A DNA stretch of 64,000 bases from Lepisosteus oculatus (Eukaryota; Chordata; Actinopteri; Semionotiformes; Lepisosteidae), in contig NC_090699.1 in the NCBI RefSeq assembly GCF_040954835.1, positions 14,315,817 to 14,379,816 on the forward strand, given 5' to 3'. Numbering within the stretch: position 1 is the stretch's first letter; the number at the start of each line of letters is the position of its first letter. The notes under the pieces were generated by a model. The model was not told where the DNA came from and ran no database searches. It saw only the letters and a program-made list of their open reading frames with translations. Positions 5,301-61,231 of the stretch are shown here, piece after piece. The translations under genes were made by a program, and so were the position numbers.

Positions 5301-8300
5301 ATACTGCAAGTCTGAGCACAGAGACTCTGACTACAGCAGCGCAGGGCAGCGGTGAGCTATACTGCAAGTCTGAGCACAGAGACTCTGCAGGAGCAGCGCA
5401 GGGCAGTGGTGAGCTATACTGCAAGTCTGAGCACAGAGACTCTGACTACAGCAGCGCAGGGCAGCGGTGAGCTATACTGCAAGTCTGAGCACAGAGACTC
5501 TGCAGGAGCAGCGCAGGGCAGCAGTGAGCTATACTGCAAGTCTGAACACAGAGACTGCAGCAGCAGCGCAGGGCAGCGGTGAGCTATACTGCAAGTCTGA
5601 GCACAGAGACTCTGACTACAGCAGCGCAGGGCAGCAGTGAGCTATACTGCAAGTCTGAACACAGAGACTGCAGCAGCAGCGCAGGGCAGCGGTGAGCTAT
5701 ACTGCAAGTCTGAGCACAGAGACTCTGCAGGAGCAGCGCAGGGCAGCGGTGAGCTATACTGCAAGTCTGAGCACAGAGACTCTGACTACAGCAGCGCAGG
5801 GCAGCGGTGAGCTATACTGCAAGTCTGAGCACAGAGACTCTGCAGGAGCAGCGCAGGGCAGTGGTGAGCTATACTGCAAGTCTGAGCACAGAGACTCTGA
5901 CTACAGCAGCGCAGGGCAGCGGTGAGCTATACTGCAAGTCTGAGCACAGAGACTCTGCAGGAGCAGCGCAGGGCAGCGGTGAGCTATACTGCAAGTCTGA
6001 GCACAGAGACTCTGACTACAGCAGCGCAGGGCAGCGGTGAGCTATACTGCAAGTCTGAGCACAGAGACTCTGACTACAGCAGCGCAGGGCAGCGGTGAGC
6101 TATACTGCAAGTCTGAGCACAGAGACTCTGACTACAGCAGCGCAGGGCAGCGGTGAGCTATACTGCAAGTCTGAGCACAGAGACTCTGCAGGAGCAGCGC
6201 AGGACAGCGGTGAGCTATACTGCAAGTCTGAGCACAGAGACTCTGACTACAGCAGCGCAGGGCAGCGGTGAGCTATACTGCAAGTCTGAGCACAGAGACT
6301 GCAGGAGCAGCGCAGGGCAGCGGTGAGCTATACTGCAAGTCTGAGCACAGAGACTCTGACTACAGCAGCGCAGGACAGCGGTGAGCTATACTGCAAGTCT
6401 GAGCACAGAGACTCTGACTACAGCACCGCAGGGCAGCGGTGAGCTATACTGCAAGTCTGAGCACAGAGACTCTGCAGGAGCAGCGCAGGGCAGCGGTGAG
6501 CTATACTGCAAGTCTGAGCACAGAGACTCTGCAGGAGCAGCGCAGGGCAGCGGTGAGCTATACTGCAAGTCTGAGCACAGAGACTCTGACTACATTACCG
6601 CAGGGCAGCGGTGAGCTATACTGCAAGTCTGAGCACAGAGACTCTGCAGGAGCAGCGCAGGGCAGCGGTGAGCTATACTGCAAGTCTGAGCACAAAGACT
6701 CTGACTACAGCAGCGCAGGACAGCGGTGAGCTATACTGCAAGTCTGAGCACAGAGACTCTGACTACAGCACCGCAGGGCAGCGGTGAGCTATACTGCAAG
6801 TCTGAGCACAGAGACTGCAGGAGCAGCGCAGGGCAGCGGTGAGCTATACTGCAAGTCTGAGCACAGAGACTTCAGGAGCAGCGCAGGGCAGCGGTGAGCT
6901 ATACTGCAAGTCTGAGCACAGAGACTCTGACTACAGCAGCGCAGGGCAGCGGTGAGCTATACTGCAAGTCTGAGCACAGAGACTGCAGGAGCAGCGCAGG
7001 GCAGCGGTGAGCTATACTGCAAGTCTGAGCACAGAGACTCTGACTACAGCAGCGCAGGGCAGCGCTGAGCTATACTGCAAGTCTGAGCACAGAGACTCTG
7101 CAGGAGCAGCGCAGGACAGCGGTGAGCTATACTGCAAGTCTGAGCACAGAGACTCTGACTACAGCAGCGCAGGGCAGCGCTGAGCTATACTGCAAGTCTG
7201 AGCACAGAGACTGCAGGAGCAGCGCAGGGCAGCGGTGAGCTATACTGCAAGTCTGAGCACAGAGACTCTGCAGGAGCAGCGCAGGACAGCGGTGAGCTAT
7301 ACTGCAAGTCTGAGCACAGAGACTGCAGGAGCAGCGCAGGGCAGCCGTGAGCTATACTGCAAGTCTGAGCACAGAGACTCTGACTATAGCAGCGCAGGGC
7401 AGCGGTGAGCTATACTGCAAGTCTGAGCACAGAGACTCTGCAGGAGCAGCGCAGGGCAGCGGTGAGCTATACTGCAAGTCTGAGCACAGAGACTCTGCAG
7501 GAGCACCGCAGGACAGCGGTGAGCTATACTGCAAGTCTGAGCACAGAGACTCTGACTACAGCAGCGCAGGGCAGCGGTGAGCTATACTGCAAGTCTGAGC
7601 ACAGAGACTGCAGGAGCAGCGCAGGGCAGCGGTGAGCTATACTGCAAGTCTGAGCACAGAGACTCTGCAGGAGCAGCGCAGGACAGCGGTGAGCTATACT
7701 GCAAGTCTGAGCACAGAGACTGCAGGAGCAGCGCAGGGCAGCGGTGAGCTATACTGCAAGTCTGAGCACAGAGACTCTGACTACAGCAGCGCAGGACAGC
7801 GGTGAGCTATACTGCAAGTCTGAGCACAGAGACTCTGACTACAGCAGCGCAGGACAGCGGTGAGCTATACTGCAAGTCTGAACACAGAGACTGCAGCAGC
7901 AGCGCAGGGCAGCGGTGAGCTATACTGCAAGTCTGAGCACAGAGACTCTGACTACAGCAGCGCAGGGCAGCGGTGAGCTATACTGCAAGTCTGAGCACAG
8001 AGACTCTGACTACAGCAGCGCAGGACAGCGGTGAGCTATACTGCAAGTCTGAGCACAGAGACTCTGCAGGAGCAGCGCAGGGCAGCGGTGAGCTATACTG
8101 CAAGTCTGAGCACAGAGACTCTGACTACAGCAGCGCAGGGCAGCGGTGAGCTATACTGCAAGTCTGAGCACAGAGACTCTGCAGGAGCAGCGCAGGGCAG
8201 TGGTGAGCTATACTGCAAGTCTGAGCACAGAGACTCTGACTACAGCAGCGCAGGGCAGCGGTGAGCTATACTGCAAGTCTGAGCACAGAGACTCTGACTA

Positions 8301-10290
8301 TAGCAGCGCAGGGCAGCGGTGAGCTATACTGCAAGTCTGAGCACAGAGACTGCAGGAGCAGCGCAGGGCAGCGGTGAGCTATACTGCAAGTCTGAGCACA
8401 GAGACTGCAGGAGCAGCGCAGGGCAGCGGTGAGCTATACTGCAAGTCTGAGCACAGAGACTGCAGGAGCAGCGCAGGGCAGCGGTGAGCTATACTGCAAG
8501 TCTGAGCACAGAGACTCTGCAGGAGCAGCGCAGGGCAGCGGTGAGCTATACTGCAAGTCTGAGCACAGAGACTCTGCAGGAGCAGCGCAGGGCAGCGGTG
8601 AGCTATACTGCAAGTCTGAGCACAGAGACTCTGCAGGAGCAGCGCAGGGCAGCGGTGAGCTATACTGCAAGTCTGAGCACAGAGACTCTGACTACAGCAG
8701 CGCAGGGCAGCGGTGAGCTATACTGCAAGTCTGAGCACAGAGACTCTGCAGGAGCAGCGCAGGGCAGTGGTGAGCTATACTGCAAGTCTGAGCACAGAGA
8801 CTCTGACTACAGCAGCGCAGGGCAGCGGTGAGCTATACTGCAAGTCTGAGCACAGAGACTCTGCAGGAGCAGCGCAGGGCAGCAGTGAGCTATACTGCAA
8901 GTCTGAACACAGAGACTGCAGCAGCAGCGCAGGGCAGCGGTGAGCTATACTGCAAGTCTGAGCACAGAGACTCTGACTACAGCAGCGCAGGGCAGCAGTG
9001 AGCTATACTGCAAGTCTGAACACAGAGACTGCAGCAGCAGCGCAGGGCAGCGGTGAGCTATACTGCAAGTCTGAGCACAGAGACTCTGCAGGAGCAGCGC
9101 AGGGCAGCGGTGAGCTATACTGCAAGTCTGAGCACAGAGACTCTGACTACAGCAGCGCAGGGCAGCGGTGAGCTATACTGCAAGTCTGAGCACAGAGACT
9201 CTGCAGGAGCAGCGCAGGGCAGTGGTGAGCTATACTGCAAGTCTGAGCACAGAGACTCTGACTACAGCAGCGCAGGGCAGCGGTGAGCTATACTGCAAGT
9301 CTGAGCACAGAGACTCTGCAGGAGCAGCGCAGGGCAGCAGTGAGCTATACTGCAAGTCTGAGCACAGAGACTCTGACTACAGCAGCGCAGGGCAGCGGTG
9401 AGCTATACTGCAAGTCTGAGCACAGAGACTCTGACTACAGCAGCGCAGGGCAGCGGTGAGCTATACTGCAAGTCTGAGCACAGAGACTCTGCAGGAGCAG
9501 CGCAGGACAGCGGTGAGTTATACTGCAAGTCTGAGCACAGAGACTCTGACTACAGCAGCGCAGGGCAGCGCTGAGCTATACTGCAAGTCTGAGCACAGAG
9601 ACTCTGACTACAGCAGCGCAGGGCAGCGCTGAGCTATACTGCAAGTCTGAGCACAGAGACTGCAGGAGCAGCGCAGGGCAGCGGTGAGCTATACTGCAAG
9701 TCTGAGCACAGAGACTCTGCAGGAGCAGCGCAGGGCAGCGGTGAGCTATACTGCAAGTCTGAGCACAGAGACTGCAGGAGCAGCGCAGGACAGCGGTGAG
9801 CTATACTGCAAGTCTGAGCACAGAGACTCTGCAGGAGCAGCGCAGGGCAGCGGTGAGCTATACTGCAAGTCTGAGCACAGAGACTCTGACTACAGCAGCG
9901 CAGGAGAGCGGTGAGCTATACTGCAAGTCTGAGCACAGAGACTCTGACTACAGCAGCGCAGGACAGCGGTGAGCTATACTGCAAGTCTGAGCACAGAGAC
10001 TCTGACTACAGCAGCGCAGGGCAGCGGTGAGCTATACTGCAAGTCTGAGCACAGAGACTGCAGGAGCAGCGCAGGGCAGCGGTGAGCTATACTGCAAGTC
10101 TGAGCACAGAGACTCTGACTACAGCAGCGCAGGACAGCGGTGAGCTATACTGCAAGTCTGAGCACAGAGACTCTGACTACAGCAGCGCAGGGCAGCGGTG
10201 AGCTATACTGCAAGTCTGAGCACAGAGACTGCAGGAGCAGCGCAGGGCAGCGGTGAGCTATACTGCAAGTCTGAGCACAGAGACTCTGCA
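2390..10290. repeat. 7.9-kb minisatellite MS-B (about 54-58 bp unit) with higher-order duplication
   Basis: About 140 tandem copies of a unit containing GGTGAGCTATACTGCAAGTC followed by TGAGCACAGAGACT. Two main spacer variants alternate (CTGACTACAGCAGCGCAG and CTGCAGGAGCAGCGCAG). Rare marker variants recur at a fixed distance: TACATTACCG at about 3350 and 6596, CACAAAGACT at about 3446 and 6692, and CAGCCGTGAG at about 4096 and 7342. All are 3246 bp apart. The array therefore contains a head-to-tail duplication of about 3.25 kb (about 2760-6005 and 6006 onward). The second copy has roughly 115 bp (two units) extra near 8155-8270. It lies upstream of the minus-strand exon at 1842-2370. Confidence 0.97.
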
Positions 10291-10855
10291 GCAGAAGCAC
10301 TCTGAGCTCTTTGACTATTTGTTACTGTTACTGTTACTAAGGACTTTCTCCCGCTGCTGGAAGTGAAGACAGCAGCAGTCCTGCTGTTGTGCCCCCCGTA
10401 CCCCCGAGGGACCCTGAATCACCTGGTGGTGTGGGAGCAGTGGGGGGGTGTCACCCCTCCGTGTGAGGCGGCGGCGGCGGCGGTGGCTCACCTAGTGCGT
10501 CTGCTCCCAGCGTCTCTGCGCCCGTCCCAGCGTCTCTCTGTGTCCCGCAGGGGCGGCACACCGCTCTATAAGAGCAGCAGTGCTCGATCAGGCCAGCCCC
10601 CCCTTACCCAACCTCCCCACGGGACTTCCTCAAACGCCCCCGGCTGTCCCCGGGCCTGCCTCCCTCCCACTTCCCTCTTTCAAACTGTCTCTCTCTCTCC
10701 ATCGCCGCGCTGGTTCACAGCACAGGGGATGGGGGATCATCGGGATCGCCGGGACGAGCCGGAGGACTGGGTGGAGAGTAGGGCTCCCGTGAGGACGAGA
10801 GTGGCTGTGGGCTCTGGGAGCACGCCGTGATCTTGACCTGACGAGGGCCGCAGGG
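10291..10855. other. Unique, partly GC-rich spacer
   Basis: Single-copy sequence between MS-B and an interspersed repeat. It has a GCG-rich stretch near 10,465-10,490 and a 155-codon plus-strand open frame from 10,363 that I do not believe, because it is low-complexity with no recognisable domain. On the minus strand a donor-like GTGAGC follows position 10,492, and an acceptor-like CTGCTGCTCTTATAG ends near 10,567. A small exon of about 75 bp between them would splice in phase with the exon ending at 2370. This is tentative. Confidence 0.3.
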
Positions 10856-16608: not shown

Positions 16609-27064
<10,456 letters not shown>

Positions 27065-27199
27065 CTGAGAGAGAGAGGGGACGTTAATACAGACACCCCG
27101 ACTGACCACACTTTGCTGAAAGCGGATACTGGTTTCTTTCAGATCTAATCGCAGAATCTGTCCTCCAGACAGCTCTGTCTGTCCACCCCTCACAAAATC

Positions 27200-34620: not shown

Positions 34621-36581
34621 GTGAGCTCCCGCGGGTCTAGCCAGGAAATGTAATCAAATGCGGATGAATCGGATTATCCGTGACCAGGTTAGCGCGGGCT
34701 CTCTCGGATCGTCGCGGCGGCTCTCCCTCCTCCCCGGCAGAGCCCCGAGAGTGTGGGAAGATGAGCTGGACGTCCGCTCTGCCCTATTCCCCGGTCCAAG
34801 TCAGCCCCGACACGGGGACAGGGGAGAGTGTTTCACAAAATGTAAAGGAGGAGGTTACTGCTTGCTGGCTGTCAGAGCCACAGTTAAAATGCTTGTTGTG
34901 TCCAGGCGTCATGCTCATGTAGTTAATACTCTCCCGCTCTCTCCTCTCCCTCCCTGTCACTGCTCTCGCTCTCTCCTTTCAAGTTCAAGTCTGTCACGTG
35001 TACCTGAGTACTATGAAGTGCTTACTTGCATGTTTTCCTCAGCTGACAATTGACCTAACAGGTGACATAACAGTGACATAGAAAATGACATCACAAATGA
35101 CATCACAAATCCTGGAGACAGGAACAGGGTAGTAGCTGTAATTTAAATCTCTGCCCCCTCTCTGCCTTCTCTCTCCCCTCTCTCTTTCCTCGCGTTCCTA
35201 TCTCGCCTCTCTCCCCTCTCTGTCAGTAGCAGTGTGTCTGGGATGTGCTCAGTTCCTGGACCAGTATTTTGACACTCCTGACTGTCGCCTCACGCTCCGG
35301 GACGTCTGGTTGCGCCGCCGCCAGGGCAGCTGGGAGCTGAAGTGTCGCGACGGAGCGACAAGGCGCCGGAGCGCCGCGGAGAGCCGCCAACAGGAGAGAG
35401 GAGGGGACGCGCTCTGCACCCGCTACCGGGAGATCACAGAGCTGGCAGAGGTCATCGCCAGGGTGAGAGAGGAGCTGCGAGAGGGAGACCATGAGCAAGC
35501 AGCGAGGGTTCGAGACGGACAGATGAGGGAAGATGGAGGGGGAGAAGGAAAAAGCCCAGCTTCAACAGAGACACAGGTGACTGGAACTGGAGCCCGCCTT
35601 GGGACAGGAAGTGACATCGGGCAAGGAAATGCAGAAATCCCACCCACGGGAAGTGACATCAAGACAAGTGATACAGAAGACCCTCCCACAGGAAGTCAGG
35701 TGTCAGGGGGAGAGGAAGAGAATAGTAGCCCCTCCTGGGTTCGGGAACTCGGCCTCTTCCCCTTTGCTCAGTTCACCACTGAGAGGTGCTCTTACATCCT
35801 GCCCATGGAGGGGGAGGAGGAAGAGGTGGAGGGAGGGGGGACGCGGATCGATCTGGACCGGACAGATTTTGGGTTCTGTGTTGGTGAGATCGAGGTGCTG
35901 GTCCAGAGCCCAGAGGAGATGGATTCTGCACTCAGGAAGATTGAGAGGACAGCCCAGAGACTGGGTAACTGACTGTCTGTGTGACTGTGAATGAGTCTGT
36001 GTGACTGGCTGTCTGGCTGACCGTGTGTCTGAGGGTCTGTATTAACTCTCTGTCTGGCTGACCGTGTGTCTGAGGGTCTGTATTAACTCTCTGTCTGGCT
36101 GACTGTGTGTCTGAGGGTCTGTATTAACTCTCTGTCTGGCTGACTGTGTCTCTGAGGGTCTGTATTAACTCTCTGTCTGGCTGACCGTGTGTCTGAGGGT
36201 CTGTATTAACTCTCTGTCTGGCTGACTGTGTGTCTGAGGGTCTGTATTAACTCTCTGTCTGGCTGACTGTGTCTCTGAGGGTCTGTATTAACTCTCTGTC
36301 TGGCTGACTGTGTCTCTGAGGGTCTGTATTAACTCTCTGTCTGGCTGACTGTGTGTCTGAGGGTCTGTATTAACTCTCTGTCTGGCTGACCGTGTGTCTG
36401 AGGGTCTGTATTAACTCTCTGTCTGGCTGACTGTGTGTCTCAGGTCTGTATTAACTCTCTGTCTGGCTGTGTGTCTGCAGGTCTGTCTGGGGATCAGAAG
36501 GTTCCAGGGAAGATGGACGCTTATTTACAGAAGTTCCGCCCAGAGCATTATGGGAAACTGCTTTCTGCCCACGTGCTCTGA
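34551..36581 (+). CDS. thtpa: Thiamine triphosphatase (gene span)
   Basis: Cytosolic Mg-dependent enzyme of the CYTH fold that hydrolyses thiamine triphosphate to the diphosphate. The exons 34,551-34,620, 35,230-35,964 and 36,481-36,581 join in frame to about 301 residues, against about 230 in human. Family landmarks in order: EVERKF; YFDTPDCRL; WLRRRQGSWELKC; TRYREITE; FTTERCSY; IDLDRTDFGFCVGEIEVLV; LQKFRPEHYGKLL. These line up with the human enzyme, including the acidic and basic tunnel residues. The extra length is an insert of about 65 residues in the middle of exon 2. A polyadenylation signal follows at 36,723. It lies head-to-head with zfhx2, as in human. Confidence 0.95.
34621..35226. 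other. thtpa intron 1
   Basis: Contains no long minisatellite, unlike almost every other intron here. Only a short doublet of TGACATCACAAATGACATCA near 35,085 and a CT-rich stretch before the acceptor. Confidence 0.7.
35230..35964 (+). CDS. thtpa: thtpa coding exon 2
   Basis: The acceptor is a triple tandem CAG-TAG-CAG (35,224-35,232). All three choices are in frame, giving exon starts at 35,227, 35,230 or 35,233. The middle one gives the same spacing as the human protein. It encodes the central CYTH strands. Between TRYREITE...ARVREEL and FTTERCSY lies a hydrophilic insert with three imperfect TGSDI/TGSQV repeats. The donor is CTGG/GTAACT at 35,964. Confidence 0.9.
35985..36475 (+). repeat. 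Minisatellite MS-J (about 41-bp unit) filling thtpa intron 2
   Basis: About 11 copies of GGGTCTGTATTAACTCTCTG then TCTGGCTGACTGTGTGTCTGA. The array occupies almost the whole 516-bp intron. The true acceptor reads TGTGTGTCTGCAG/GTCTGTCTGG and looks like a repeat unit in which CTGAGG became CTGCAG. The unit also carries GTCTGTATTAAC, shared with MS-A. Confidence 0.95.
36481..36581 (+). CDS. thtpa: thtpa coding exon 3 (last)
   Basis: Joins exon 2 in phase to give RLGLSGDQKVPGKMDAYLQK and FRPEHYGKLLSAHVL, ending TGA at 36,579-36,581. The LQKFRPEHYGKLL segment matches the human LQRFRPQDYQRLL, which fixes frame and gene end. Confidence 0.92.
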
Positions 36582-38512: not shown

Positions 38513-39180
38513 TCACAGCAGCTTCTCCAGGCTCAGGACAGTGACACGGCTCAGTCTGGCCGCCCACTGGGGCAGGGTGGGGGTGAGCCGAGTGCGGACG
38601 TGCGTGAAGCCCAGCGCGCGGTACAGGCGGCAGGCGTCCGTCTGGATGCTGGAGGTCTCCAGGGCGACGCGCGAGAACCCCCGGGCCCGGCAGAACTCCA
38701 GGGCGACCTGGGTCAGGCGGGACCCCAGGCCTCGGTGGCGGAACGCGGGAGACACGTTCAGCCGGAACACCTCCCCGCAGTCTCCCCGCCTCGCCACGGC
38801 AACCGTCCCCGCGACCACCCTGGACCCCCCCGCCTCTTCGGCCTCCGCCACCCAGAAGCAGCGGTCGGGGCGGGACAGGAAGTGGGCCGGGATGTCGCTC
38901 ATGTCCGTGCGCAGCTTCGCCCGGACGTAGCCGTGGAACGTCTCGTGGCACACGAGGAGCAGCAGGCCGGCCCACGCCGCCACGGCCGCCGCAGCCGGCC
39001 ACAGGCTGCCGCGGGACACCACCACAGCCGCCACGGCCAGGCCCAGGGCCCAGCCCACGTTGTCGGGGTGGAACAGCGCCTGCCGGAACGCTGGGAGGAC
39101 GTGCTCGGTGATCCCGGAGCGGAATAGAGTGACAACAGCATCGTGGTCTGAAGGCTGGTACTTCCTGATCACAAACTGCA
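38513..39180 (-). CDS. nat8-like: N-acetyltransferase 8 (camello)-like, main coding exon
   Basis: A membrane-anchored GNAT acetyltransferase of the NAT8/camello family; human NAT8 members use acetyl-CoA on cysteine conjugates or lysines in the ER. The exon encodes about 222 residues. It has an N-terminal IRKYQPSDHD (human: IRKYQESD), a hydrophobic segment at about residues 44-83 that anchors the protein, the family motif LRTDMSDI, then the GNAT core with FRLNVSPAFRHRGLGSRL (acetyl-CoA loop R-x-x-G-x-G) and ALGFTHVRTR near the end. The stop TGA is at 38,513-38,515. The acceptor CTCTCTCTCAG/TGCAG is itself the edge of MS-A array 3. The exon starts with TG, so the Met codon is completed by the last base of the previous exon. 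Confidence 0.9.
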
Positions 39181-39915
39181 CTGAGAGAGAGAGGGGTCAA
39201 TACAGACACACTGACTGACTGGACACTCCAGTACATTAACACTGCACTGAGAGAGAGGGGTTCATACAGACACACTGACTGACTGGACACTCCAGTACAT
39301 TAACACTGCACTGAGAGAGAGGGGTTCATACAGACACACTGACTGACTGGACACTCCAGTACATTAACACTGCACTGAGAGAGAGGGGTTCATACAGACA
39401 CACTGACTGACTGGACACTCCAGTACATTAACACTGCACTGAGAGAGAGGGGTTCATACAGACACACTGACTGACTGGACACTCCAGTACATTAACACTG
39501 CACTGAGAGAGAGGGGTTCATACAGACACACTGACTGACTGGACACTCCAGTACATTAACACTGCACTGAGAGAGAGGGGTTCATACAGACACACTGACT
39601 GACTGGACACTCCAGTACATTAACACTGCACTGAGAGAGAGGGGTTCATACAGACACACTGACTGGACACTCCAGTACATTAACACTGCACTGAGAGAGA
39701 GGGGTTCATACAGACACACTGACTGACTGGACACTCCAGTACATTAACACTGCACTGAGAGAGAGGGGTTCATACAGACACACTGACTGGACACTCCAGT
39801 ACATTAACACTGCACTGGGAGAGAGGGGTTCATACAGACACACTGACTGGACACTCCAGTACATTAACACTGCACTGAGAGAGAGGGGTTCATACAGACA
39901 CACTGATTGGATATT
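39181..39915 (-). repeat. MS-A minisatellite array 3, filling the nat8-like intron
   Basis: About 12 copies of the 60/64-bp unit occupying more than 90% of the intron between 39,974 and 39,181. The last unit runs straight into the acceptor of the coding exon. That unit reads GTCTGTATTGACCCC then CTCTCTCTCTCAG. Confidence 0.97.
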
Positions 39916-39974
39916 ACAGTAAATTAGTGATGCGCTGAGAGATGCACAAGCAAAGAGATGTTAAAATCACTTAC

Positions 39975-48264: not shown

Positions 48265-49888
48265 ATTAACCCCTCTCTCCCAGTGCAGTGTTAATGTACT
48301 GGAGTGTCCAGTCAGTCAGTGTGTCTGTATGAACCCCTCTCTCTCAGTGCAGTGTTAATGTACTGGAGTGTCCAGTCAGTGTGTCTGTATGAACCCCTCT
48401 CTCTCAGTGCAGTGTTAATGTACTGGAGTGTCCAGTCAGTCAGTGTGTCTGTATGAACCCCTCTCTCTCAGTGCAGTGTTAATGTACTGGAGTGTCCAGT
48501 CAGTCAATGTGTCTGTATGAACCCCTCTCTCTCAGTGCAGTGTTAATGTACTGGAGTGTCCAGTCAGTGTGTCTGTATGAACCCCTCTCTCTCAGTGCAG
48601 TGTTAATGTACTGGAGTGTCCAGTCAGTCAGTGTGTCTGTATGAACCCCTCTCTCTCAGTGCAGTGTTAATGTACTGGAGTGTCCAGTCAGTGTGTCTGT
48701 ATGAACCCCTCTCTCTCAGTGCAGTGTTAATGTACTGGAGTGTCCAGTCAGTCAGTGTGTCTGTATGAACCCCTCTCTCTCAGTGCAGTGTTAATGTACT
48801 GGAGTGTCCAGTCAGTGTGTCTGTATGAACCCCTCTCTCTCAGTGCAGTGTTAATGTACTGGAGTGTCCAGTCAGTCAGTGTGTCTGTATGAACCCCTCT
48901 CTCTCAGTGCAGTGTTAATGTACTGGAGTGTCCAGTCAGTGTGTCTGTATGAACCCCTCTCTCTCAGTGCAGTGTTAATGTACTGGAGTGTCCAGTCAGT
49001 CAGTGTGTCTGCATGAACCCCTCTCTCTCAGTGCAGTGTTAATGTACTGGAGTGTCCAGTCAGTCAATGTGTCTGTATGAACCCCTCTCTCTCAGTGCAG
49101 TGTTAATGTACTGGAGTGTCCAGTCAGTCAGTGTGTCTGTATTAACCCCTCTCTCTCAGTGCAGTGTTAATGTACTGGAGTGTCCAGTCAGTCAGTGTGT
49201 CTGTATGAACCCCTCTCTCTCAGTGCAGTGTTAATGTACTGGAGTGTCCAGTCAGTCAGTGTGTCTGTATGAACCCCTCTCTCTCAGTGCAGTGTTAATG
49301 TACTGGAGTGTCCAGTCAGTGTGTCTGTATGAACCCCTCTCTCTCAGTGCAGTGTTAATGTACTGGAGTGTCCAGTCAGTGTGTCTGTATGAACCCCTCT
49401 CTCTCAGTGCAGTGTTAATGTACTGGAGTGTCCAGTCAGTGTGTCTGTATTAACCCCTCTCTCTCAATGCAGTGTTAATGTACTGGAGTGTCCAGTCAGT
49501 GTGTCTGTATTAACCCCTCTCTCTCGGTGCAGTGTTAATGTACTGGAGTGTCCAGTCAGTGTGTCTGTATGAACCCCTCTCTCTCAGTGCAGTGTTAATG
49601 TACTGGAGTGTCCAGTTAGTGTGTCTGTATGAACCCCTCTCTCTCAGTACAGTGTTAATGTACTGGAGTGTCCAGTCAGTCAGTGTGTCTGTATGAACCC
49701 CTCTCTCTCAGTGCAGTGTTAATGTACTGGAGTGTCCAGTCAGTCAGTGTGTCTGTATGAACCCCTCTCTCTCAGTGCAGTGTTAATGTACTGGAGTGTC
49801 CAGTCAGTCAGTGTGTCTGTATGAACCCCTCTCTCTCAGTGCAGTGTTAATGTACTGGAGTGTCCAGTCAGTCAGTGTGTCTGTGTTA
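48265..49888 (+). repeat. MS-A minisatellite array 4, dcaf11 intron 1
   Basis: About 26 copies of the 60/64-bp unit, here in the plus (sense) orientation with CCTCTCTCTCAGTGCAGTGT visible directly. A few units (near 49,137, 49,447 and 49,507) read GTATTAACCCC while most read GTATGAACCCC. The array ends about 25 bp before the acceptor of the start-codon exon. Confidence 0.97.
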
Positions 49889-49913
49889 ATTCCTGTCTTT
49901 ACCTTTCTCAAAG

Positions 49914-50134
49914 TGTCGGTCTATGGGCTCTCAGTCCAGTTCTGGGATGTCCGGTCGGGCCTCCAGTGGTGACCCAGACGAGACAGAGCCAGAACGCAGC
50001 CAGAACCGGGGCCAGCAAAGCCGCAGACAGGCGAGGAGACAGTTGGACAGAGGGGCAGAGGAGCAGAGCGACAGAGGGTCCGCAGCAGAGGAGGACGTCG
50101 ACTTAGCGCAAGTGCTGGCGTACCTACTGAGGAG
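49914..50134 (+). CDS. dcaf11: dcaf11 exon 2 (start codon exon)
   Basis: The acceptor is CCTTTCTCAAAG and the start ATG is at 49,923. It encodes MGSQSSSGMSGRASSGDPDE, an acidic/Gln/Arg-rich N-terminus, and ends EEDVDLAQVLAYLLRR, matching the DVDLAQVLAYLLRR of human DCAF11. The donor GGAG/GTAAGA splits the second Arg codon. The N-terminal region is variable in the family. Confidence 0.95.
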
Positions 50135-53100
50135 GTAAGAGTGCAGCACTGTGTCTCTCACGGGCTTCCTGCAGGGACACTGAGTCTAGGAGAACAAACT
50201 GACACACTGTCCAGACATCCTGACACACTGTCCAGACACTGAGTCTAAGAGAACACACTGACACACTGTACAGACACACTGACACACTGTCCAGACACTG
50301 AGTCTAGGAGAACACACTGACACACTGTGTAGACACTCTGACACACTGTCCAGACACTGAGTCTAAGAGAACACACTGACACACTGTACTGACACACTGA
50401 CACACTGTCCAGAAACTGAGTCTAGGAGAACACACTGACACACTGTCCAGAAACACTGACACACTGACTCACTGTACAGACACACTGACACACTGTACAC
50501 AGAGTCTAGGAGAACACACTGACACACTGTACAGACACAGAGTCTAGGAGAACACACTGACACACTGTCCAGACACACTGTACACTGAGTCTAGGAAAAC
50601 ACACTGACACACTGTGCAGACACACTGTCCAGACATGCTGACACACTGTACTGACACTGTCAAGGAGAACACACTGACATACTGTGTGGACACACTGTCC
50701 AGACACTCTGACACACTGTACTGACACTGAGTCTAGGAGAACACACTGACACACTGTGTGGACACACTGTCCAGACACTCTGACACACTGTACTGACACT
50801 GAGTCTAGGAGAACACACTGACACACTGTCCAGACACGCTGACACACTGACACACTGTACAGAAACTGAGTCTAGGAGAAGACACTTACACACTGTCCAG
50901 ACACGCTGACACACTGTACAGACACTGAGCCTAGGAGAACACACTGGCACACTGTCCAGACACACTGACACACTGTCCAGACACTGAGCCTATGAGAGCA
51001 CATTGACACACTGTACAGACACTGAGTCTAGGAGAACACACTGACATACTGTACTGACACTGAGCCTAGGAGAACACACTGACACACTGTCCAGACACAC
51101 TGACACACTGTCCAGACACTGAGCCTATGAGAGCACATTGACACACTGTACAGACACTGAGTCTAGGAGAACACACTGACACACTGTACTGAAACTGAGT
51201 CTAGGAGAACACACTGACACACTGTCCAGACACACTGACACACTGTCCAGACACACTGACACACTGTACAGACACTGAGTCTAGGAGAAGACACTTACAC
51301 ACTGTCCAGACAAGCTGACACACTGTCCAGACACTGAGCCTAGGAGAACACACTGACACACTGTACAGACACACTGACACACTGTCCAGACACTGAGTCT
51401 AAGAGAACACACTGACACACTGTACTGACACACTGACACACTGTCCAGAAACTGAGCCTAGGAGAACACACTGACACACTGTCCAGACACACTGACACAC
51501 TGTCCAGACACTGAGTCTAGGAGAACACACTGACACACTGTACTGACACGCTGACACACTGTCCAGACACTGAGCCTAGGAGAACACACTGACACACTGT
51601 CCAGACACTGAGCCTAGGAGAACACACTGACACACTGTCCAGACACTGAGCCTAGGAGAACACACTTGACACACTGTCCAGACACGCTGACACACTGTCC
51701 AGACACTGAGCCTAGGAGAACACACTGACACACTGTCCAGACACTGAGTCTAGGAGAACACACTGACACACTGTCCAGACACTGAGTCCAGGAGAACACA
51801 CTGACACACTGTGGAGACACTGAGTCTAGGAGAACACACTGACACACTGTGCAGACACACTGACACACTGTCCAGACACTGAGCCTAGGAGAACACACTG
51901 ACACACTGTCCAGACACTGAGTCCAGGAGAACACACTGACACACTGTCCAGACACTGAGTCTAGGAGAACACACTGACACACTGTACAGACACTGAGTCT
52001 AGGAGAACACACTGGCACACTGTCCAGACACACTGACACACTGTCCAGACACTGAGCCTATGAGAGCACATTGACACACTGTACAGACACTGAGTCTAGG
52101 AGAACACACTGACACACTGTACTGACACTGAGCCTAGGAGAACACACTGACACACTGTCCAGACACACTGACACACTGTACAGACACTGAGTCTAGGAGA
52201 AGACACTTACACACTGTCCAGACAAGCTGACACACTGTACAGACACTGAGTCTAGGAGAACACACTGACACACTGTACTGACACTGAGCCTAGGAGAACA
52301 CACTGACACACTGTCCAGACACACTGACACACTGTCCAGACACACTGACACACTGTACAGACACTGAGTCTAGGAGAAGACACTTACACACTGTCTAGAC
52401 ACGCTGACACACTGACACACTGTACAGAAACTGAGTCTAGGAGAAGACACTTACACACTGTCCAGACACGCTGACACACTGTACAGACACTGAGTCTAGG
52501 AGAACACACTGGCACACTGTCCAGACACACTGACACACTGTCCAGACACTGAGCCTAGGAGAACACACTGACACACTGTACAGACACACTGACACACTGT
52601 CCAGACACTGAGTCTAGGAGAACACACTGACACACTGTCCAGACACTGAGTCTAGGAGAACACACTGACACACTGTACTGACACACTGACACACTGTCCA
52701 GACACTGAGCCTAGGAGAACACACTGACACACTGTCCAGACACTGAGCCTAGGAGAACACACTGACACACTGTCCAGACACTGAGCCTAGGAGAACACAC
52801 TGACACACTGTCCAGACACTGAGTCTAGGAGAACACACTTGACACACTGTCCAGACACGCTGACACACTGTCCAGACACTGAGCCTAGGAGAACACACTG
52901 ACACACTGTCCAGACACTGAGTCTAGGAGAACACACTGACACACTGTCCAGACACTGAGTCCAGGAGAACACACTGACACACTGTGGAGACACTGAGTCT
53001 AGGAGAACACACTGACACACTGTGCAGACACACTGACACACTGTCCAGACACTGAGCCTAGGAGAACACACTGACACACTGTCCAGACACTGAGTCCAGG

Positions 53101-56100
53101 AGAACACACTGACACACTGTCCAGACACTGAGTCTAGGAGAACACACTGACACACTGTACAGACACTGAGTCTAGGAGAACACACTGGCACACTGTCCAG
53201 ACACACTGACACACTGTCCAGACACTGAGCCTATGAGAGCACATTGACACACTGTACAGACACTGAGTCTAGGAGAACACACTGACACACTGTACTGACA
53301 CTGAGCCTAGGAGAACACACTGACACACTGTCCAGACACACTGACACACTGTACAGACACTGAGTCTAGGAGAAGACACTTACACACTGTCCAGACAAGC
53401 TGACACACTGTACAGACACTGAGTCTAGGAGAACACACTGACACACTGTACTGACACTGAGCCTAGGAGAACACACTGACACACTGTCCAGACACACTGA
53501 CACACTGTCCAGACACACTGACACACTGTACAGACACTGAGTCTAGGAGAAGACACTTACACACTGTCCAGACACGCTGACACACTGACACACTGTACAG
53601 AAACTGAGTCTAGGAGAAGACACTTACACACTGTCCAGACACGCTGACACACTGTACAGACACTGAGTCTAGGAGAACACACTGGCACACTGTCCAGACA
53701 CACTGACACACTGTCCAGACACTGAGCCTAGGAGAACACACTGACACACTGTACAGACACACTGACACACTGTCCAGACACTGAGTCTAGGAGAACACAC
53801 TGACACACTGTCCAGACACTGAGTCTAGGAGAACACACTGACACACTGTACTGACACACTGACACACTGTCCAGACACTGAGCCTAGGAGAACACACTGA
53901 CACACTGTCCAGACACTGAGCCTAGGAGAACACACTGACACACTGTCCAGACACTGAGCCTAGGAGAACACACTGACACACTGTCCAGACACTGAGTCTA
54001 GGAGAACACACTTGACACACTGTCCAGACACTGAGTCTAGGAGAACACACTGACACACTGTCCAGACACTGAGCCTAGGAGAACACACTGACACACTGTC
54101 CAGACACTGAGCCTAGGAGAACACACTTGACACACTGTCCAGACACTGAGTCTAGGAGAACACACTGACACACTGTCCAGACACTGAGCCTAGGAGAACA
54201 CACTTGACACACTGTCCAGACACTGAGTCCAGGAGAACACACTGACACACTGTACTGACACACTGACACACTGTCCAGACACTGAGCCTAGGAGAACACA
54301 CTTGACACACTGTCCAGACACTGAGTCTAGGAGAACACACTGACACACTGTCCAGACACACTGACACACTGTCCAGACACTGAGCCCAGGAGAACACACT
54401 GACACACTACTGACACACTGTCCAGACACTGAGTCTAGGAGAACACACTGACACACTGTCCAGACACTGAGTCTAGGAGAACACACTGACACACTGTGCA
54501 GACACACTGACACACTGTCCAGACACTGAGCCTATGAGAGCACATTGACACACTGTACAGACACTGAGTCTAGGAGAACACACTGACACACTGTACTGAC
54601 ACTGAGCCTAGGAGAACACACTGACACACTGTCCAGACACACTGACACACTGTCCAGACACTGAGTCTAGGAGAACACACTGACACACTGTGCAGACACA
54701 CTGACACACTGTCCAGAAACTGAGTCTAGGAGAACACACTGACACACTGTCCAGAAACTGAGTCTAGGAGAAGACACTTACACACTGTCCAGACACGCTG
54801 ACACACTGTCCAGACACTGAGTCTAGGAGAACACACTGACACACTGTACTGACACACTGACACACTGTCCAGACACTGAGCCTAGGAGAACACACTTGAC
54901 ACACTGTCCAGACACTGAGCCTAGGAGAACACACTGACACACTGTCCAGACACTGAGTCTAGGAGAACACACTGACACACTGTGCAGACACACTGACACA
55001 CTGTCCAGACACTGAGTCTAGGTGAACACACTGACACACTGTGCAGACACACTGACACACTGTGCAGACACACTGGCACCCTGACACACTGTGCAGACAC
55101 ACTGGCACCCTGACACCCGGTCGTCTCTGTGGTGTTTAGTGGGTGTCTTCCCTTGCTCCCTCTGTCTCCGCCCCTCTTCCTGATTGGAGGGGACAGGTGC
55201 GGCTGGTCCATGGGAGCGGGGCCACGGGGCTGCAGCTCGTCCAATCGTACTCCGACTCCGACGATGACAGCGAGGGGGCGTGGGAGGGCCGCCTCGGAGA
55301 CCGCTACAACCCGCCCGGTAGCTCGCCGACCGCGACCTGATCTCACACCCGCGCGTGCACACAGACGCAGGACGGCAGCGTGCTCCTGTCCACAGGCCGT
55401 TCCCACCGCTGCCTCTGGTTCCTCTGTCCAGTAGAGCAGAGCGCTGTTTTCCCTCTGCCCTGCCCCCTCACGTGCTTCACGACTCGTGTGTTCAGACTGT
55501 GCTGACACTGCTGTGACCTTTCACCTCTGACCTATATCGCACAGAGCTCAGGTATTCCTTCTGTGCTGTGATTGCGCTCACACTGCTGTGTCCTTTCACC
55601 TCTGACCTTAAGTGCCTTGTAAAATGATACTGACACACACAGTGCAGTGCTCATATCCTGCGTCTGTATGAACCCCCCTCTCTCAGTGCAGTGTTAATGT
55701 ACTAGAGTGTCCAGTCAGTCAGTGTGTCTGTATGAACCCCTCTCTCTCAGTGCAGTGTTAATGTACTAGAGTGTCCAGTCAGTCAGTGTGTCTGTATGAA
55801 CCCCTCTCTCTCAGTGCAGTGTTAATGTACTGGAGTGTCCAGTCAGTCAGTGTGTCTGTATGAACCCCTCTCTCTCAGTGCAGTGTTAATGTACTGGAGT
55901 GTCCAGTCAGTCAGTGTGTCTGTATGAACCCCTCTCTCTCAGTGCAGTGTTAATGTACTGGAGTGTCCAGTCAGTCAGTGTGTCTGTATGAACCCCTCTC
56001 TCTCAGTGCAGTGTTAATGTACTGGAGTGTCCAGTCAGTCAGTGTGTCTGTATGAACCCCTCTCTCTCAGTGCAGTGTTAATGTACTGGAGTGTCCATTC

Positions 56101-59100
56101 AGTCAGTGTGTCTGTATGAACCCCTCTCTCTCAGTGCAGTGTTAATGTACTGGAGTGTCCAGTCAGTCAGTGTGTCTGTATGAACCCCTCTCTCTCAGTG
56201 CAGTGTTAATGTACTGGAGTGTCCAGTCAGTGTGTCTGTATGAACCCCTCTCTCTCAGTGCAGTGTTAATGTACTGGAGTGTCCAGTCAGTCAGTGTGTC
56301 TGTATGAACCCCTCTCTCTCAGTGCAGTGTTAATGTACTGGAGTGTCCATTCAGTCAGTGTGTCTGTATGAACCCCTCTCTCTCAGTGCAGTGTTAATGT
56401 ACTGGAGTGTCCAGTCAGTCAGTGTGTCTGTATGAACCCCTCTCTCTCAGTGCAGTGTTAATGTACTGGAGTGTCCAGTCAGTCAGTGTGTCTGTATGAA
56501 CCCCTCTCTCTCAGTGCAGTGTGTATTAACCCCTCTGTCTGTGTCAGTGGACGCTCACCCTGACACGCAGGAAGTGGACTGCAGTGAGATCAGGACTCGG
56601 ATCCTCTTGGCCACGGCCTCCTCAGGGTCCCGGAGTCCCCGCAGCTTCACTCAGATGCTCAGAGAGGTGAGAGCTCAGGGATGGGTGGGTACTGGTGTAA
56701 TTGTGTGTTTGTGTGCGCCGGCAGTTTCAGGGCAGCGTTGTGTGGTGGTTGTTTTTCTTCAGTTGTGCGGTTATTTGTTGTGCTGTGGTTCAGTGACCTC
56801 CCTGTGTGATGGTTGTGTTGTGTGACTGTTGTGTTGTTGTTCCAGAGGGAGCAGGGTCGCTGCCTGGGCTCCAGTTTCTCTCACGGAGAGTGCAGCAACA
56901 TCCGCTCACAGTGAGTACACAACCTGCACAGCATACTCAACACACACTGCTACACAGTACACACAACACTGCACAGCACACACTGCTGTACAGCACACAC
57001 TGCTACACAACCCTGCACTACACATGCTGCTGCACAACACTGCACAGCACACAACTCTGCACAGCACACACTGATATACAGTACAACAGACTGCTACACA
57101 GCTCTGCACAGCACACAACACTGTACAGCGCACACTGATACACAACACACACTGATACACAGCACTGATACACAAAACATACTGATGCCCAGCACACAAC
57201 ACTATACAGCGCACACTGATACACAACACACACTGCTACACAGCATTGACACACAACACACACTGATACACAGTTCTGCACAGCACACAACACTGTACAG
57301 CACACATTGATACACAATACACACTGATACACAGCTCTGCACAGCACACAACACGGTACAACATGCACTGATACACAACACACACTGATACACAGCTCTG
57401 CACAGCACACAACACTGCACAGCGCACACTGATACACAACACACACTGCTACACGGCACTGCTACACATCACACACTGCTACACATCTCTACACAGCACT
57501 GTACAGCGCACACTGATACACAATACACATTGATACACAGCTCTGCACAACACACAACACTGTACAACATGCACTGATACACAACACACACTGATACACA
57601 GCTCTGCACAGCACACAACACTGTACAGCGCACACTAATACACAACACACATTGATACAGAGCTCTGCACAGCACACAACACTGTACAACGCACACTGAT
57701 ACACAACACACACTGCTACACATCTCTGCACAGCACACAGCACTGCACAGCGCACACTGCCTGGCAAGCCTGCGCAGAAAGCTCCTGGCTGCAGGGGGCG
57801 CTGTGTGCTGTTGCCCTGGGCCGTAGAGCTCGTCCTCTAGGTGTCGCTCCTGTGACCTGCCCCTGCGCTCCCACAGTGGCCCGATCCCACAGCGAGCGGC
57901 CGGGAGTCACGTCTGCTCATCTGCTCTCCTTCCAGTTTCCTGCCCAACTATGTGACGTACAAGGACATCTATCAGCAGAAGGTGTTCTGTGGAGTTTACT
58001 CTGAGGATGGCAGACTGTTCCTCTCGGCCTGCCAGGGTCAGTGTCTCTCTCCTTCTGAATGTGTGTCTGTATGAACCCCTCTCTCAGTGCAGTGTTAATG
58101 TACTGGAGTGTCCAGTCAGTCAGTGTGTCTGTATGAACCCCTCTCTCTCAGTGCAGTGTTAATGTACTGGAGTGTCCAGTCAGTCTGTGTGTCTGTATGA
58201 ACCCCTCTCTCTCAGTGCAGTGTTAATGTACTGGAGTGTCCAGTCAGTCAGTGTGTCTGTATGAACCCCTCTCTCTCAGTGCAGTGTTAATGTACTGGAG
58301 TGTCCAGTCAGTCAGTGTGTCTGTATGAACCCCTCTCTCTCAGTGCAGTGTTAATGTACTGGAGTGTCCAGTCAGTCAGTGTGTCTGTATGAACCCCTCT
58401 CTCTCAGTGCAGTGTTAATGTACTGGAGTGTCCAGTCAGTCAGTGTGTCTGTATGAACCCCTCTCTCTCAGTGCAGTGTTAATGTACTGGAGTGTCCAGT
58501 CAGTCAGTGTGTCTGTATGAACCCCTCTCTCTTAGTGCAGTGTTAATGTACTGGAGTGTCCAGTCAGTGTGTCTGTATGAACCCCTCTCTCTCAGTGCAG
58601 TGTTAATGTACTGGAGTGTCCAGTCAGTCAGTGTGTCTGTATTAACCCCTCTCTCTCAGTGCAGTGTTAATGTACTGGAGTGTCCAGTCAGTCAGTGTGT
58701 CTGTATGAACCCCTCTCTCTCAGTGCAGTGTTAATGTACTGGAGTGTCCAGTCAGTCAGTGTGTCTGTATGAACCCCTCTCTCTCAGTGCAGTGTTAATG
58801 TACTGGAGTGTCCAGTCAGTCAGTGTGTCTGTATGAACCCCTCTCTCTCAGTGCAGTGTTAATGTACTGGAGTGTCCAGTCAGTGTGTCTGTATGAACCC
58901 CTCTCTCTCTCAGTGCAGTGTTAATGTACTGGAGTGTCCAGTCAGTGTGTCTGTATGAACCCCTCTCTCTCAGTACAGTGTTAATGTACTGGAGTGTCCA
59001 GTCAGTCAGTGTGTCTGTATGAACCCCTCTCTCTCAGTGCAGTGTTAATGTACTGGAGTGTCCAGTCAGTGTGTCTGTATGAACCCCTCTCTCTCAGTGC

Positions 59101-61231
59101 AGTGTTAATGTACTGGAGTGTCCATTCAGTCAGTGTGTCTGTATGAACCCCTCTCTCTCAGTGCAGTGTTAATGTACTGGAGTGTCCATTCAGTCAGTGT
59201 GTCTGTATGAACCCCTCTCTCTCAGTGCAGTGTTAATGTACTGGAGTGTCCAGTCAGTCAGTGTGTCTGTATGAACCTCTCTCGTCTTACCCTCCTGTCT
59301 CTCTCAGATCAGAACGTGCGGCTGTATGACACCAGCTCCGGCCGGTTCCGAGTGATCCGTACAGTGAAGGCCCGTGATGTTGGCTGGAGTGTGCTGGATG
59401 TCGCCTTCACCCCAGACGGACACAACCTGTTGTACTCCAGCTGGTCTGACTACAGTGAGTTGCGATGGGGAGAGGGGGAGGGGGCTCCCAAAATTCCACC
59501 AGCATGTTGGGTTACCAATAGCGATCCATCAGCCTGTCCTTGTGGAATCCCCGGATATCGAGCCGGGAACGGCCCTTTTGTAAATAAGAGCCCCTTGTTC
59601 ATGGTATTTATTCAAGTTTTAGTCTGCTTCGAAGGACAGTTTGAGTTGGAATCGCGGGTCCAGGTTGGGATTCTGGGTAGGTTCGTGGGTCCGGGTTGGG
59701 ATTTTAGTTGGAATCGCAGGTGACGGTTGGGTTTTCCGTTGGAATCGCAGGTCCAGGTTGGGATGTCTGTGGAATCGGGGGTCCAGGTTGGGATGTCTGT
59801 GGGAATCGGGGGTCCAGGTTGGGATGTCTGTGGAATCGGGGGTCCACATTGGGATGTCTGTGGAATCGGGGGTCCACGTTGGGATGTCTGTGGGAATCGG
59901 GGGTCCAGGTTGGGATGTCTGTGGGAATCGGGGGTCCAGGTTGGGATGTCTGTGGGAATCGGGGGTCCAGGTTGGGATGTCTGTGGGAATCGGGGGTCCA
60001 GGTTGGGATGTCTGTGGGAATCGGGGGTCCAGGTTGGGATGTCTGTGGAATCGGGGGTCCAGGTTGGGATGTCTGTGGGAATCGGGGGTCCAGGTTGGGA
60101 TGTCTGTGGGAATCGGGGGTCCAGGTTGGGATGTCTGTGGGAATCGGGGGTCCAGGTTGGGATGTCTGTGGAATCAGGGGTCCAGGTTGGGATGTCTGTG
60201 GGAATCGGGGGTCCAGGTTGGGATGTCTGTGGAATCGGGGGTCCAGGTTGGGATGTCTGTGGGAATCGGGGGTCCAGGTTGGGATGTCTGTGGAATCGCA
60301 GGTCCAGGTTGGGATGTCTGTGGAATCGGGGGTCCAGGTTGGGATGTCTGTGGAATCGGGGGTCCACGTTGGGATGTCTGTGGAATCGGGGGTCCAGGTT
60401 GGGATGTCTGTGGAATCGCAGGTGCAGGTTGGGATGTCTGTGGAATCGGGGGTCCACGTTGGGATGTCTGTGGAATCGGGGGTCCAGGTTGGGATGTCTG
60501 TGGGAATCGGGGGTCCAGGTTGGGATGTCTGTGGAATCGGGGGTCCAGGTTGGGATGTCTGTGGAATCGGGGGTCCAGGTTGGGATGTCTGTGGGAATCG
60601 GGGGTCCAGGTTTGGGTGTCTGTGGGAATCGGGGGTCCAGGTTTGGGTGTCTGTGGGAATCGGGGGTCCAGGTTGGGATGTCTGTGGAATCGCGGGTCCA
60701 GGTTGGGATGTCTGTGGGAATCGGGGGTCCAGGTTGGGATGTCTGTGGAATCGGGGGTCCAGGTTGGGATGTCTGTGGAATCGGGGGTCCAGGTTGGGAT
60801 GTCTGTGGGAATCGGGGGTCCAGGTTGGGGTGTCTGTGGGAATCGGGGGTCCAGGTTGGGATGTCTGTGGAATCGCAGGTGCAGGTTGGGATGTCTGTGG
60901 AATCAGGGGTCCAGGTTGGGATGTCTGTGGAATCGGGGGTCCAGGTTGGGGTGTCTGTGGGAATCGGGGGTCCAGGTTGGGATGTCTGTGGAATCGCAGG
61001 TGCAGGTTGGGATGTCTGTGGAATCAGGGGTCCAGGTTGGGATGTCTGTGGAATCGGGGGTCCAGGTTGGGATGTCTGTGGGAATCGGGGGTCCAGGTTG
61101 GGATATTGGTTGGAATCGCAGGTGCAGGCTGGGAATGGAGGAAGCCCAGTGGGTGATTTTGCGTCTCTGATTGCAGTTCATGTGTGCAGCCTGGATGGCG
61201 ACAATGAGACTCACACAGCGCTGGATCTCAA
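49923..61231 (+). CDS. dcaf11: DDB1- and CUL4-associated factor 11, 5' part (gene span)
   Basis: A WD40 substrate receptor of the CUL4-DDB1 E3 ubiquitin ligase (also called WDR23; known to act on NRF2). Seven coding exons are visible: 49,923-50,134; 55,190-55,317; 56,548-56,666; 56,846-56,910; 57,936-58,036; 59,308-59,454; 61,177-61,231. All phases match. They give about 275 residues with clear family matches: DVDLAQVLAYLLRR, GRLGDRYNPP, VDAHPDTQEVD, SHFLPNYVTYKDIYQQKVFCG, DQNVRLYD, KARDVGWSVLDVAFTPDG, YSSWSDYIHVC and THTALDL. This is about half of the family length (about 550 residues); the remaining WD repeats lie beyond 64,000. Each of the seven introns seen here carries a tandem repeat array. 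Confidence 0.97.
50190..55110. repeat. Minisatellite MS-N filling dcaf11 intron 2 (about 4.9 kb), with higher-order repeat
   Basis: Units combine GACACTGAGTCTAGGAGAAC then ACACTGACACACTGTCCA (about 38 bp) and optional GACACACTGACACACTGTCCA (about 21 bp). A long identical stretch is repeated at 51,614 and 52,787, so a 1,173-bp higher-order segment is duplicated head to tail. The array begins about 55 bp after the donor at 50,134 and ends about 80 bp before the next acceptor. Reverse-strand frames over it (Cys/Ser/Val-rich) are artefacts. Confidence 0.97.
55190..55317 (+). CDS. dcaf11: dcaf11 exon 3
   Basis: Encodes (R)GQVRLVHGSGATGLQLVQSY, then SDSDDDSEGAWEGRLGDRYN and PP. It aligns with human GQVRLVQGGGA...LQF...GRLGDRYNPP. 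The acceptor is the unusual purine-containing CTGATTGGAG/GGGAC, placed by protein homology and phase. The pyrimidine tract lies just before, at CTCCGCCCCTCTTCC. The donor is CCCG/GTAGC. Confidence 0.93.
55318..55664. other. dcaf11 intron 3, single-copy first third
   Basis: Non-repetitive intron sequence apart from two copies of CTGTGACCTTTCACCTCTGACC / CTGTGTCCTTTCACCTCTGACC near 55,511 and 55,587. It precedes MS-A array 5. Confidence 0.6.
55665..56540 (+). repeat. MS-A minisatellite array 5, dcaf11 intron 3
   Basis: About 14 copies of the 60/64-bp unit in sense orientation. The last, shortened unit, GTGTATTAACCCCTCTGTCT then GTGTCAG, is the acceptor of exon 4 at 56,548. It carries the intact TATTAAC. 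Confidence 0.97.
56548..56666 (+). CDS. dcaf11: dcaf11 exon 4
   Basis: Encodes (V)DAHPDTQEVDCSEIRTRILL ATASSG...FTQMLRE, aligning with human VDATPDTRELEFNEIKTQVELATG...FPRMLHQ. The previous exon supplies the first base of the Val codon. The donor is AGAGAG/GTGAGA, phase 0. Confidence 0.95.
56846..56910 (+). CDS. dcaf11: dcaf11 exon 5
   Basis: A 65-bp exon with acceptor TTGTTGTTCCAG. It encodes REQGRCLGSSFSHGECSNIR SH across the next junction (human: RERGLCHRGSFSLGEQSRVISH). The donor CTCACA/GTGAGT leaves two bases. Confidence 0.93.
56920..57765. repeat. CA-rich minisatellite MS-O, dcaf11 intron 5
   Basis: Irregular array of about 28-60-bp modules: CACAACACTGTACAGCGCAC, ACTGATACACAACACACACT and GATACACAGCTCTGCACAGC. 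It starts about 10-20 bp after the donor at 56,910. Open frames on both strands (Cys/Val-rich or His/Thr-rich) are artefacts. Confidence 0.93.
57936..58036 (+). CDS. dcaf11: dcaf11 exon 6
   Basis: Encodes (H)FLPNYVTYKDIYQQKVFCGV YSEDGRLFLSACQ, aligning with human HFLPNDLGFTDSYSQKAFCGIYSKDGQIFMSACQ. This is the start of the WD40 propeller. The acceptor is CTCCTTCCAG and the donor CCAGG/GTCAGT (phase 1). Confidence 0.96.
58055..59280 (+). repeat. MS-A minisatellite array 6, filling dcaf11 intron 6
   Basis: About 20 copies of the 60/64-bp unit in sense orientation. It occupies practically the whole intron between the donor at 58,036 and the acceptor at 59,307. The last unit (TGTCTGTATGAACCTCTCTC) merges into the acceptor tract. 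Confidence 0.97.
59308..59454 (+). CDS. dcaf11: dcaf11 exon 7
   Basis: Encodes DQNVRLYDTSSGRFRVIRTV KARDVGWSVLDVAFTPDGHN LLYSSWSDY, nearly identical to the human WD-repeat segment (KARDVGWSVLDVAFTPDG, YSSWSDY). The acceptor is CTGTCTCTCTCAG and the donor TACA/GTGAGT. Confidence 0.97.
59640..61135. repeat. Minisatellite MS-P (30/31-bp unit), dcaf11 intron 7
   Basis: About 46 copies of GTCCAGGTTGGGATGTCTGT then GGAATCGGGG, with the optional extra G making 31 bp. Because the unit has no stop codon in any plus frame, three overlapping frames of about 500 codons run through it; none is a gene. The sense strand is G-rich with GGG/GGGGG runs in each unit. Confidence 0.97.
61177..61231 (+). CDS. dcaf11: dcaf11 exon 8 (last in the window)
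   Basis: A 55-bp exon with acceptor CTGATTGCAG and donor TCAA/GTGAGT. It encodes (I)HVCSLDGDNETHTALDL, matching human IHICNIYGEGDTHTALDL. The gene continues past the window end. Confidence 0.95.

Follow-up and report, generated by a model that had tools for sequence, protein, structure and literature searches.

The window analysed here, a stretch of 64,000 nucleotides of the Lepisosteus oculatus genome (1.2 Gb, 813 contigs), consists to 62% of tandem repeats and carries on its plus strand the gene DCAF11, seven exons of which are recognised in the window by reading frames and homology (PDB 9ptu, DCAF11, E=1e-93). A CYTH-domain gene lies on the same strand, and a GNAT acetyltransferase gene and a homeobox/zinc-finger gene lie on the minus strand. 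The CYTH gene is presumably THTPA, and we take the GNAT gene to be NAT8-like and the homeobox/zinc-finger gene to resemble ZFHX2. Several very long minisatellites are present, including a 7.9-kb array of a 58-bp unit at 2391-10298. A scan of the window against Rfam gave no match, and neither did a search of viral contigs with a 31-mer.

A unit-profile search (nhmmer) delineates six arrays of one minisatellite, MS-A, three per strand. An earlier note had reported the repeat for the interval 48265 to 59307; the repeat unit is indeed real and far beyond chance, and the interval resolves into three separate arrays of nearly perfect repeats (48265-49875, 55660-56549 and 58062-59283), with exons and an unrelated repeat (50176-55116) between them. 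The first array, of 26 units, occupies the first DCAF11 intron visible in the window, the acceptor AG of which ends at 49913, and is followed after 38 nt by the exon with the start codon (49914-50134), joined by an open frame to the later exons and covered by the 9ptu homology. The second, of 15 units, holds within its last unit the acceptor of the exon at 56548-56666, and the third, of 20 units, fills almost all of the intron 58037-59307, ahead of the exon at 59308-59454 (both exons from reading frame and homology). With boundaries drawn by TRF the gaps to the three acceptors are 29, 25 and 24 nt; with those of the unit profile, the first array ends 38 nt before its exon, the second overlaps its acceptor and the third ends 24 nt before its exon. 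DCAF11 introns contain three further minisatellites, which end 42, 73 and 176 nt before acceptors.

On the minus strand, a 13-unit array (39174-39942) ends in a unit that is the likely acceptor of a NAT8-like coding exon starting at 39180 and carrying the GNAT domain. A 12-unit array in a ZFHX2-like intron (24948-25692) is an exception, with about 690 bp between it and the acceptor. The remaining array, of 30 units (1-1822), begins about 19 nt past the GTCAGT donor of an open frame that matches no Pfam family, and its 3' end lies beyond the window. Moreover, a solitary MS-A-like unit on this strand (GTGTCTGTATTAACGTCCCCTCTCTCTCTCAG, 27065-27096) ends in the likely acceptor of a ZFHX2-like exon, which was recognised by eye and has no Pfam match; it possibly represents the unexpanded state.

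The MS-A unit and the sampled arrays

The unit reads TGTGTCTGTAT(G/T)AACCCCTCTCTCTCAGTGCAG... in tandem and is laid out as a branch site, a polypyrimidine tract and a CAG, followed by a spacer of about 35 bp. The TATTAAC-like branch site, pyrimidine tract and CAG some 15 bases further on, as proposed previously, are thus all found; the branch-like heptamer is mainly TATGAAC in the window (101 copies vs 8 of TATTAAC), and across all 80 arrays examined TATTAAC occurs 684 times and TATGAAC 406 times. The branch A of the TATTAAC form lies 15 nt upstream of the end of the unit's own CAG, or 17 nt in 62-bp units. Common units measure 56-66 bp (TRF, nhmmer) and stand head to tail, within the ~10-100 bp by which minisatellites are defined, and the arrays kept contain 3-92 units each. 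In these common units the CAG is followed by TG (CAG/TGCAG), not by the GT that would follow the AG of a recursive splice site. The predicted RNA fold of about three units is better than that of shuffled sequences (z -3.1), a value inflated by tandem repetition, so that nothing is concluded from it.

MS-A is dispersed through the genome. The 16-mer AACCCCTCTCTCTCAG has 8,370 exact genome copies, against 3 for its reversed control, and the 24-mer CAGTGTTAATGTACTGGAGTGTCC, which belongs to the MS-A core and is not acceptor-like, has 10,051 against 0. The sample comprised 80 arrays of at least 3 units from the window and 55 fetched loci, mostly on contigs C3 and C4. Specifically, 16 loci came from among the first 100 genome positions of the 16-mer, and 39 were chosen through two rare internal variants (83 and 41 places), which are uninformative about the flanks; 20 of these 39 regions were taken along C3 and C4 in contig order, and 7 and then 12 were picked by hand on other contigs, the last 12 being shifted toward the 3' side of the match.

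The DCAF11 exons were all missed by de novo exon prediction with human codon usage, which was dropped. Prediction with a strict donor score marked 10 of 73 array 3' ends vs 3 of 64 antisense ones, and it was replaced by Pfam searches and by an open-frame test, in which a YAG with a polypyrimidine tract and an open frame had to lie within -20 to +60 of the array end, five arrays of contig C14 being excluded. In addition, 47 acceptors were located by eye with the frame as a guide (4 in the window, 13 in loci L009-L024, 23 in L025-L044 and 7 in L045-L063), and acceptors were scored with a position-weight matrix.

Array ends and the acceptors of host introns

Array 3' ends are enriched at acceptor-like sites, predominantly in sense orientation. 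An acceptor-like site with an open frame of at least 120 nt occurs within 60 nt of 51 of 69 array 3' ends; the equivalent donor-side figure is 10 of 62, and the antisense controls give 6 of 62 for acceptors and 0 of 69 for donors. This enrichment, in sense and in many genes, is what the earlier note had asked to see, and it bears out the earlier description of the unit as a 3' splice-site cassette. With a frame of 150 nt the counts are 47 of 69 for the sense 3' ends and 2 of 62 for the opposite end in antisense, and 17% of 3,000 random positions pass. The 51 passing arrays comprise 3 of 5 in the window, 13 of 16 in L009-L024, 25 of 31 in L025-L044 and 10 of 17 in L045-L063 minus C14. Where the gaps on both sides could be measured (25 arrays), the 3' gap is the smaller one in 22, with medians of 6 vs 98 nt.

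Pfam searches at E<=1e-3 recovered 20 families from 103 fragments of sense 3' flank and 17 from 108 of sense 5' flank, against 1 from 104 and 1 from 110 in antisense. Since the two sense counts are alike, this evidence speaks for orientation and an intronic setting, not for a 3' preference. When 20 of the 103 sense 3' fragments were scanned singly, 9 scored above the curated cut-off, 3 only below it (HHH_3, NOP9 and a zinc finger) and 8 gave no match, several of the latter being alternative frames of flanks that otherwise match Pfam. Domains that start a few residues past an array end include SWIRM-assoc_2, E1_dh, MCM_OB, sulfotransferase, matrixin, Ras and abhydrolase.

The acceptor could be located in 47 of the 80 arrays. 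Measured from the last unit it lies at -20 to +76 nt, and in 38 cases no more than 20 nt away, with a median of 6 nt to the exon; an exact TAT(T/G)AAC precedes the exon by no more than 45 nt in 29 of the 47. By profile position, 26 of 60 array 3' ends fall at 22-29, in the tract and AG, and 13 at 60-64. Judged from these sequence features, the terminal unit, or the sequence just past it, would usually be the working 3' splice site of the host intron.

Acceptor adjacency has exceptions. The 60-nt test fails for 18 of 69 arrays, and the pass rate is lower outside contigs C1-C4 (10 of 17, vs 13 of 16 in L009-L024 and 25 of 31 in L025-L044). Inspection by eye revealed no sense exon near L011, L016, L035, L036, L053, L054 and some further arrays. 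At L028, L040, L042, L052- and L057 the exon lies about 110-210 nt from the array, and the arrays at L012, L045, L046, L052+, L056+ and L044- are apparently antisense to a gene. At L056, an insulin-like gene (by eye) has a sense array upstream of the first coding exon and an antisense array past its stop codon. The C14 arrays, with 0 of 4 in the acceptor test, had first given the impression of a mobile element from their shared flanks (1.4 kb at 90% among L048, L060 and L061, and shorter fetched stretches of L049 and L062), a candidate that was set aside; by eye, the L048 flank is LINE-like and then becomes a coding-looking stretch of zinc-finger type, for which Pfam gave no confirmation.

Terminal and internal units

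Terminal and internal units differ in the placement of the branch site. A yTnAy motif with its A at -18 to -45 is present at 31 of 47 terminal acceptors vs 93 of 1,082 internal CAGs, and when the range is widened to -16 to -45 the counts become 39 of 47 and 386 of 1,082. Paired by array (n=46), the terminal site has the advantage in 30 arrays and the internal sites in 6 for the narrower range (p=7e-5), and the terminal site in 38 and the internal sites in 5 for the wider one (p=2.5e-7), both p-values being nominal because units within one array are not independent. The terminal heptamer is TATTAAC in 23 of the 47, TATGAAC in 6 and neither in 18, and yTnAy is absent in 8. Among 6 ordinary acceptors in the window just 2 carry yTnAy at -16 to -45, so that absence of the motif does not exclude use as an acceptor.

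Conversely, the tract and AG of internal units are good. The splice-site scoring proposed in the earlier note, performed with the position-weight matrix, gives median scores of 6.6 for terminal acceptors and 5.1 for internal core CAGs, against -1.0 for shuffled arrays and -3.95 for random YAG; the scores of seven ordinary window acceptors span -0.3 to 8.4, with a median of about 4.4. Internal CAGs therefore score like ordinary acceptors, and internal units are perhaps not truly weak: they combine a good tract and AG with poorer branch placement. The description of each array as a ladder of acceptor-like sites is fair for the tract and AG, because internal CAGs score far above random and shuffled YAG; equal or recursive use of the rungs is less supported, given the branch placement, the TG after the CAG and the premature stop that 31 of the 32 internal CAGs of two DCAF11 introns would introduce if used.

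A separate 41-bp minisatellite in a THTPA intron (36009-36469, plus strand) runs into the acceptor that precedes the exon at 36481. It contains TATTAAC 11 times, TCTGAGG in 10 copies and TCTCAGG in one, and its terminal copy reads CTGCAG; its internal AGs are thus mostly GAG, with the branch motif retained. The terminal/internal difference of MS-A is paralleled here through another change.

Regional homogenisation, origin and spread

Neighbouring arrays carry the same version of the unit. Among 65 arrays of at least 5 units (C14 and L054 excluded), the modal unit is identical in 50% of 36 pairs from one fetched piece, the window included, in 53% of 195 pairs at up to 1 Mb, in 23% of 163 pairs at 1-5 Mb, in 1% of 288 pairs beyond 5 Mb and in 1% of 1,398 pairs between contigs, and the mean unit similarity declines with distance from 0.96-0.97 to 0.85. 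The homogenised arrays sit in different genes, which implies that exchange or copying crosses gene boundaries, mostly nearby. A former acceptor at the 5' edge of the arrays gave no clear signal (15 of 28, vs 38% for random YAG in a range that was slightly narrower), and this candidate is not clearly supported. The part of the unit after the CAG was compared with 47 host exons, and none stands out (best score 10, median 7); NAT8 was considered as the founder gene because its exon starts with TGCAGT, as the unit does, and was not retained, its score of 8 being unremarkable.

The earlier note knew of no described family of this kind. That statement has to be qualified by amphioxus mirages and human IFI6, which are known systems with partial likeness; in the open-licence literature searched no dispersed acceptor minisatellite was found. 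The minisatellite of human IFI6 (6-16/G1P3) reportedly supplies splice sites; both are splice-site minisatellites, IFI6 being a donor with a short unit at a single locus and MS-A an acceptor. Introner elements are dispersed, intron-linked repeats that carry both splice sites and create introns; MS-A is likewise dispersed and tied to introns, but would contribute the 3' end only and forms tandem arrays. With ordinary intronic minisatellites MS-A has in common its 56-66 bp units, homogeneous arrays and irregular copy number, and it differs from them in being dispersed and in having its orientation and position bound to the acceptor. Amphioxus mirages, as portrayed in excerpts of two reports, are minisatellite-like tandem copies of an intron/exon boundary in Adh3, globins, TnC and PGBD5, many with splice signals, and splicing is reportedly undisturbed by them (PMC3087553, PMC3902484). 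MS-A resembles the mirages of these excerpts in repeating the splice boundary of its host intron in tandem; the mirages, however, are portrayed there as arising gene by gene and including exon sequence, whereas MS-A is one unit in many genes, nearly all intronic and regionally homogenised. Lacking the gene-specific, exon-including feature, MS-A is not counted among them.

On the sequence evidence, we consider it probable that MS-A is a minisatellite family, dispersed and homogenised by region, in which the terminal unit usually acts as a working 3' splice site. The sample establishes its dispersal, its orientation bias, its closeness to acceptors, the contrast of terminal and internal units and the regional homogenisation, whereas actual splicing, selection and the mode of copying are inferred. 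It is unlikely that each array is instead an independent duplication of its own intron end, with the likeness between arrays reflecting the strong acceptor consensus that they have in common: amphioxus mirages behave in this way according to PMC3087553, and the THTPA array resembles such an independent case, but the ~35-bp spacer, which is non-consensus, is common to genes and contigs, which only a strong functional constraint on it could reconcile with this reading, the unit sequence follows the chromosomal neighbourhood, and the part after the CAG has no stand-out match among host exons. It also appears improbable that MS-A is a passive repeat that inserts anywhere in introns and owes its position and orientation to ascertainment or survival. 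The repeat-rich window, in which some introns are almost filled by repeats, would suit such a repeat, as would the arrays away from acceptors, more numerous outside C1-C4, and the DCAF11 minisatellite that stops at 42 nt, near the 24-29 nt of MS-A (both by TRF). Against it stand the 3'/5' asymmetry of the open-frame test, the shorter acceptor-side gap in 22 of 25 paired arrays, the selection of 39 of 55 loci through internal variants blind to the flanks, and the sense/antisense contrast in Pfam matches.

Use of the internal CAGs, stepwise or as alternative exon starts, is in our judgement quite improbable: their high median score, similar to that of ordinary window acceptors, would favour it, and the inferior branch spacing of internal units, the premature stops in DCAF11 and the TG in place of GT argue against it. 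We regard it as very improbable that the arrays created their host introns in the manner of introners, since 48 of 62 arrays show no donor with an open frame within 100 nt of their start, and the donors listed fall outside the MS-A unit; in its favour, 10 of the 62 do have such a donor within 60 nt, GTCAGT in two cases.

If MS-A is an acceptor-bound family of the kind favoured above, its unit would descend from an intron 3' end, comprising branch site, polypyrimidine tract and CAG, together with a spacer. Selection probably maintains the branch-to-AG geometry of the last unit, and splicing would pass over the units upstream. Copies seem to pass between acceptors that mostly lie no more than about 1 Mb apart; microhomology-guided copying, or gene conversion at the common CT tract, is the probable route, and it would preserve both sense orientation and position. 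A further-reaching proposal, which we consider possible and put forward tentatively, is that MS-A is a selfish "acceptor-replacing" repeat that would colonise the 3' splice sites of neighbouring genes tract to tract, take over the branch site and AG and homogenise neighbourhoods, with perhaps 1,800-2,100 arrays genome-wide as a rough estimate.

Splice acceptors are usually assumed to evolve singly, and in this genome a single repeat seems to have remodelled the intron 3' ends of many genes, with neighbouring genes carrying the same MS-A version. The arrays may moreover serve as a natural replicate experiment on the branch-site and AG geometries that are tolerated, as one presumed functional terminal copy stands beside many near-identical internal ones, and the copying route between introns is directly testable through relatives and populations. 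Lastly, a related array at L012 (1134-1664) shows a 31/47-bp spacing and has the branch-tract-CAG core in common with MS-A, joined to a different spacer.
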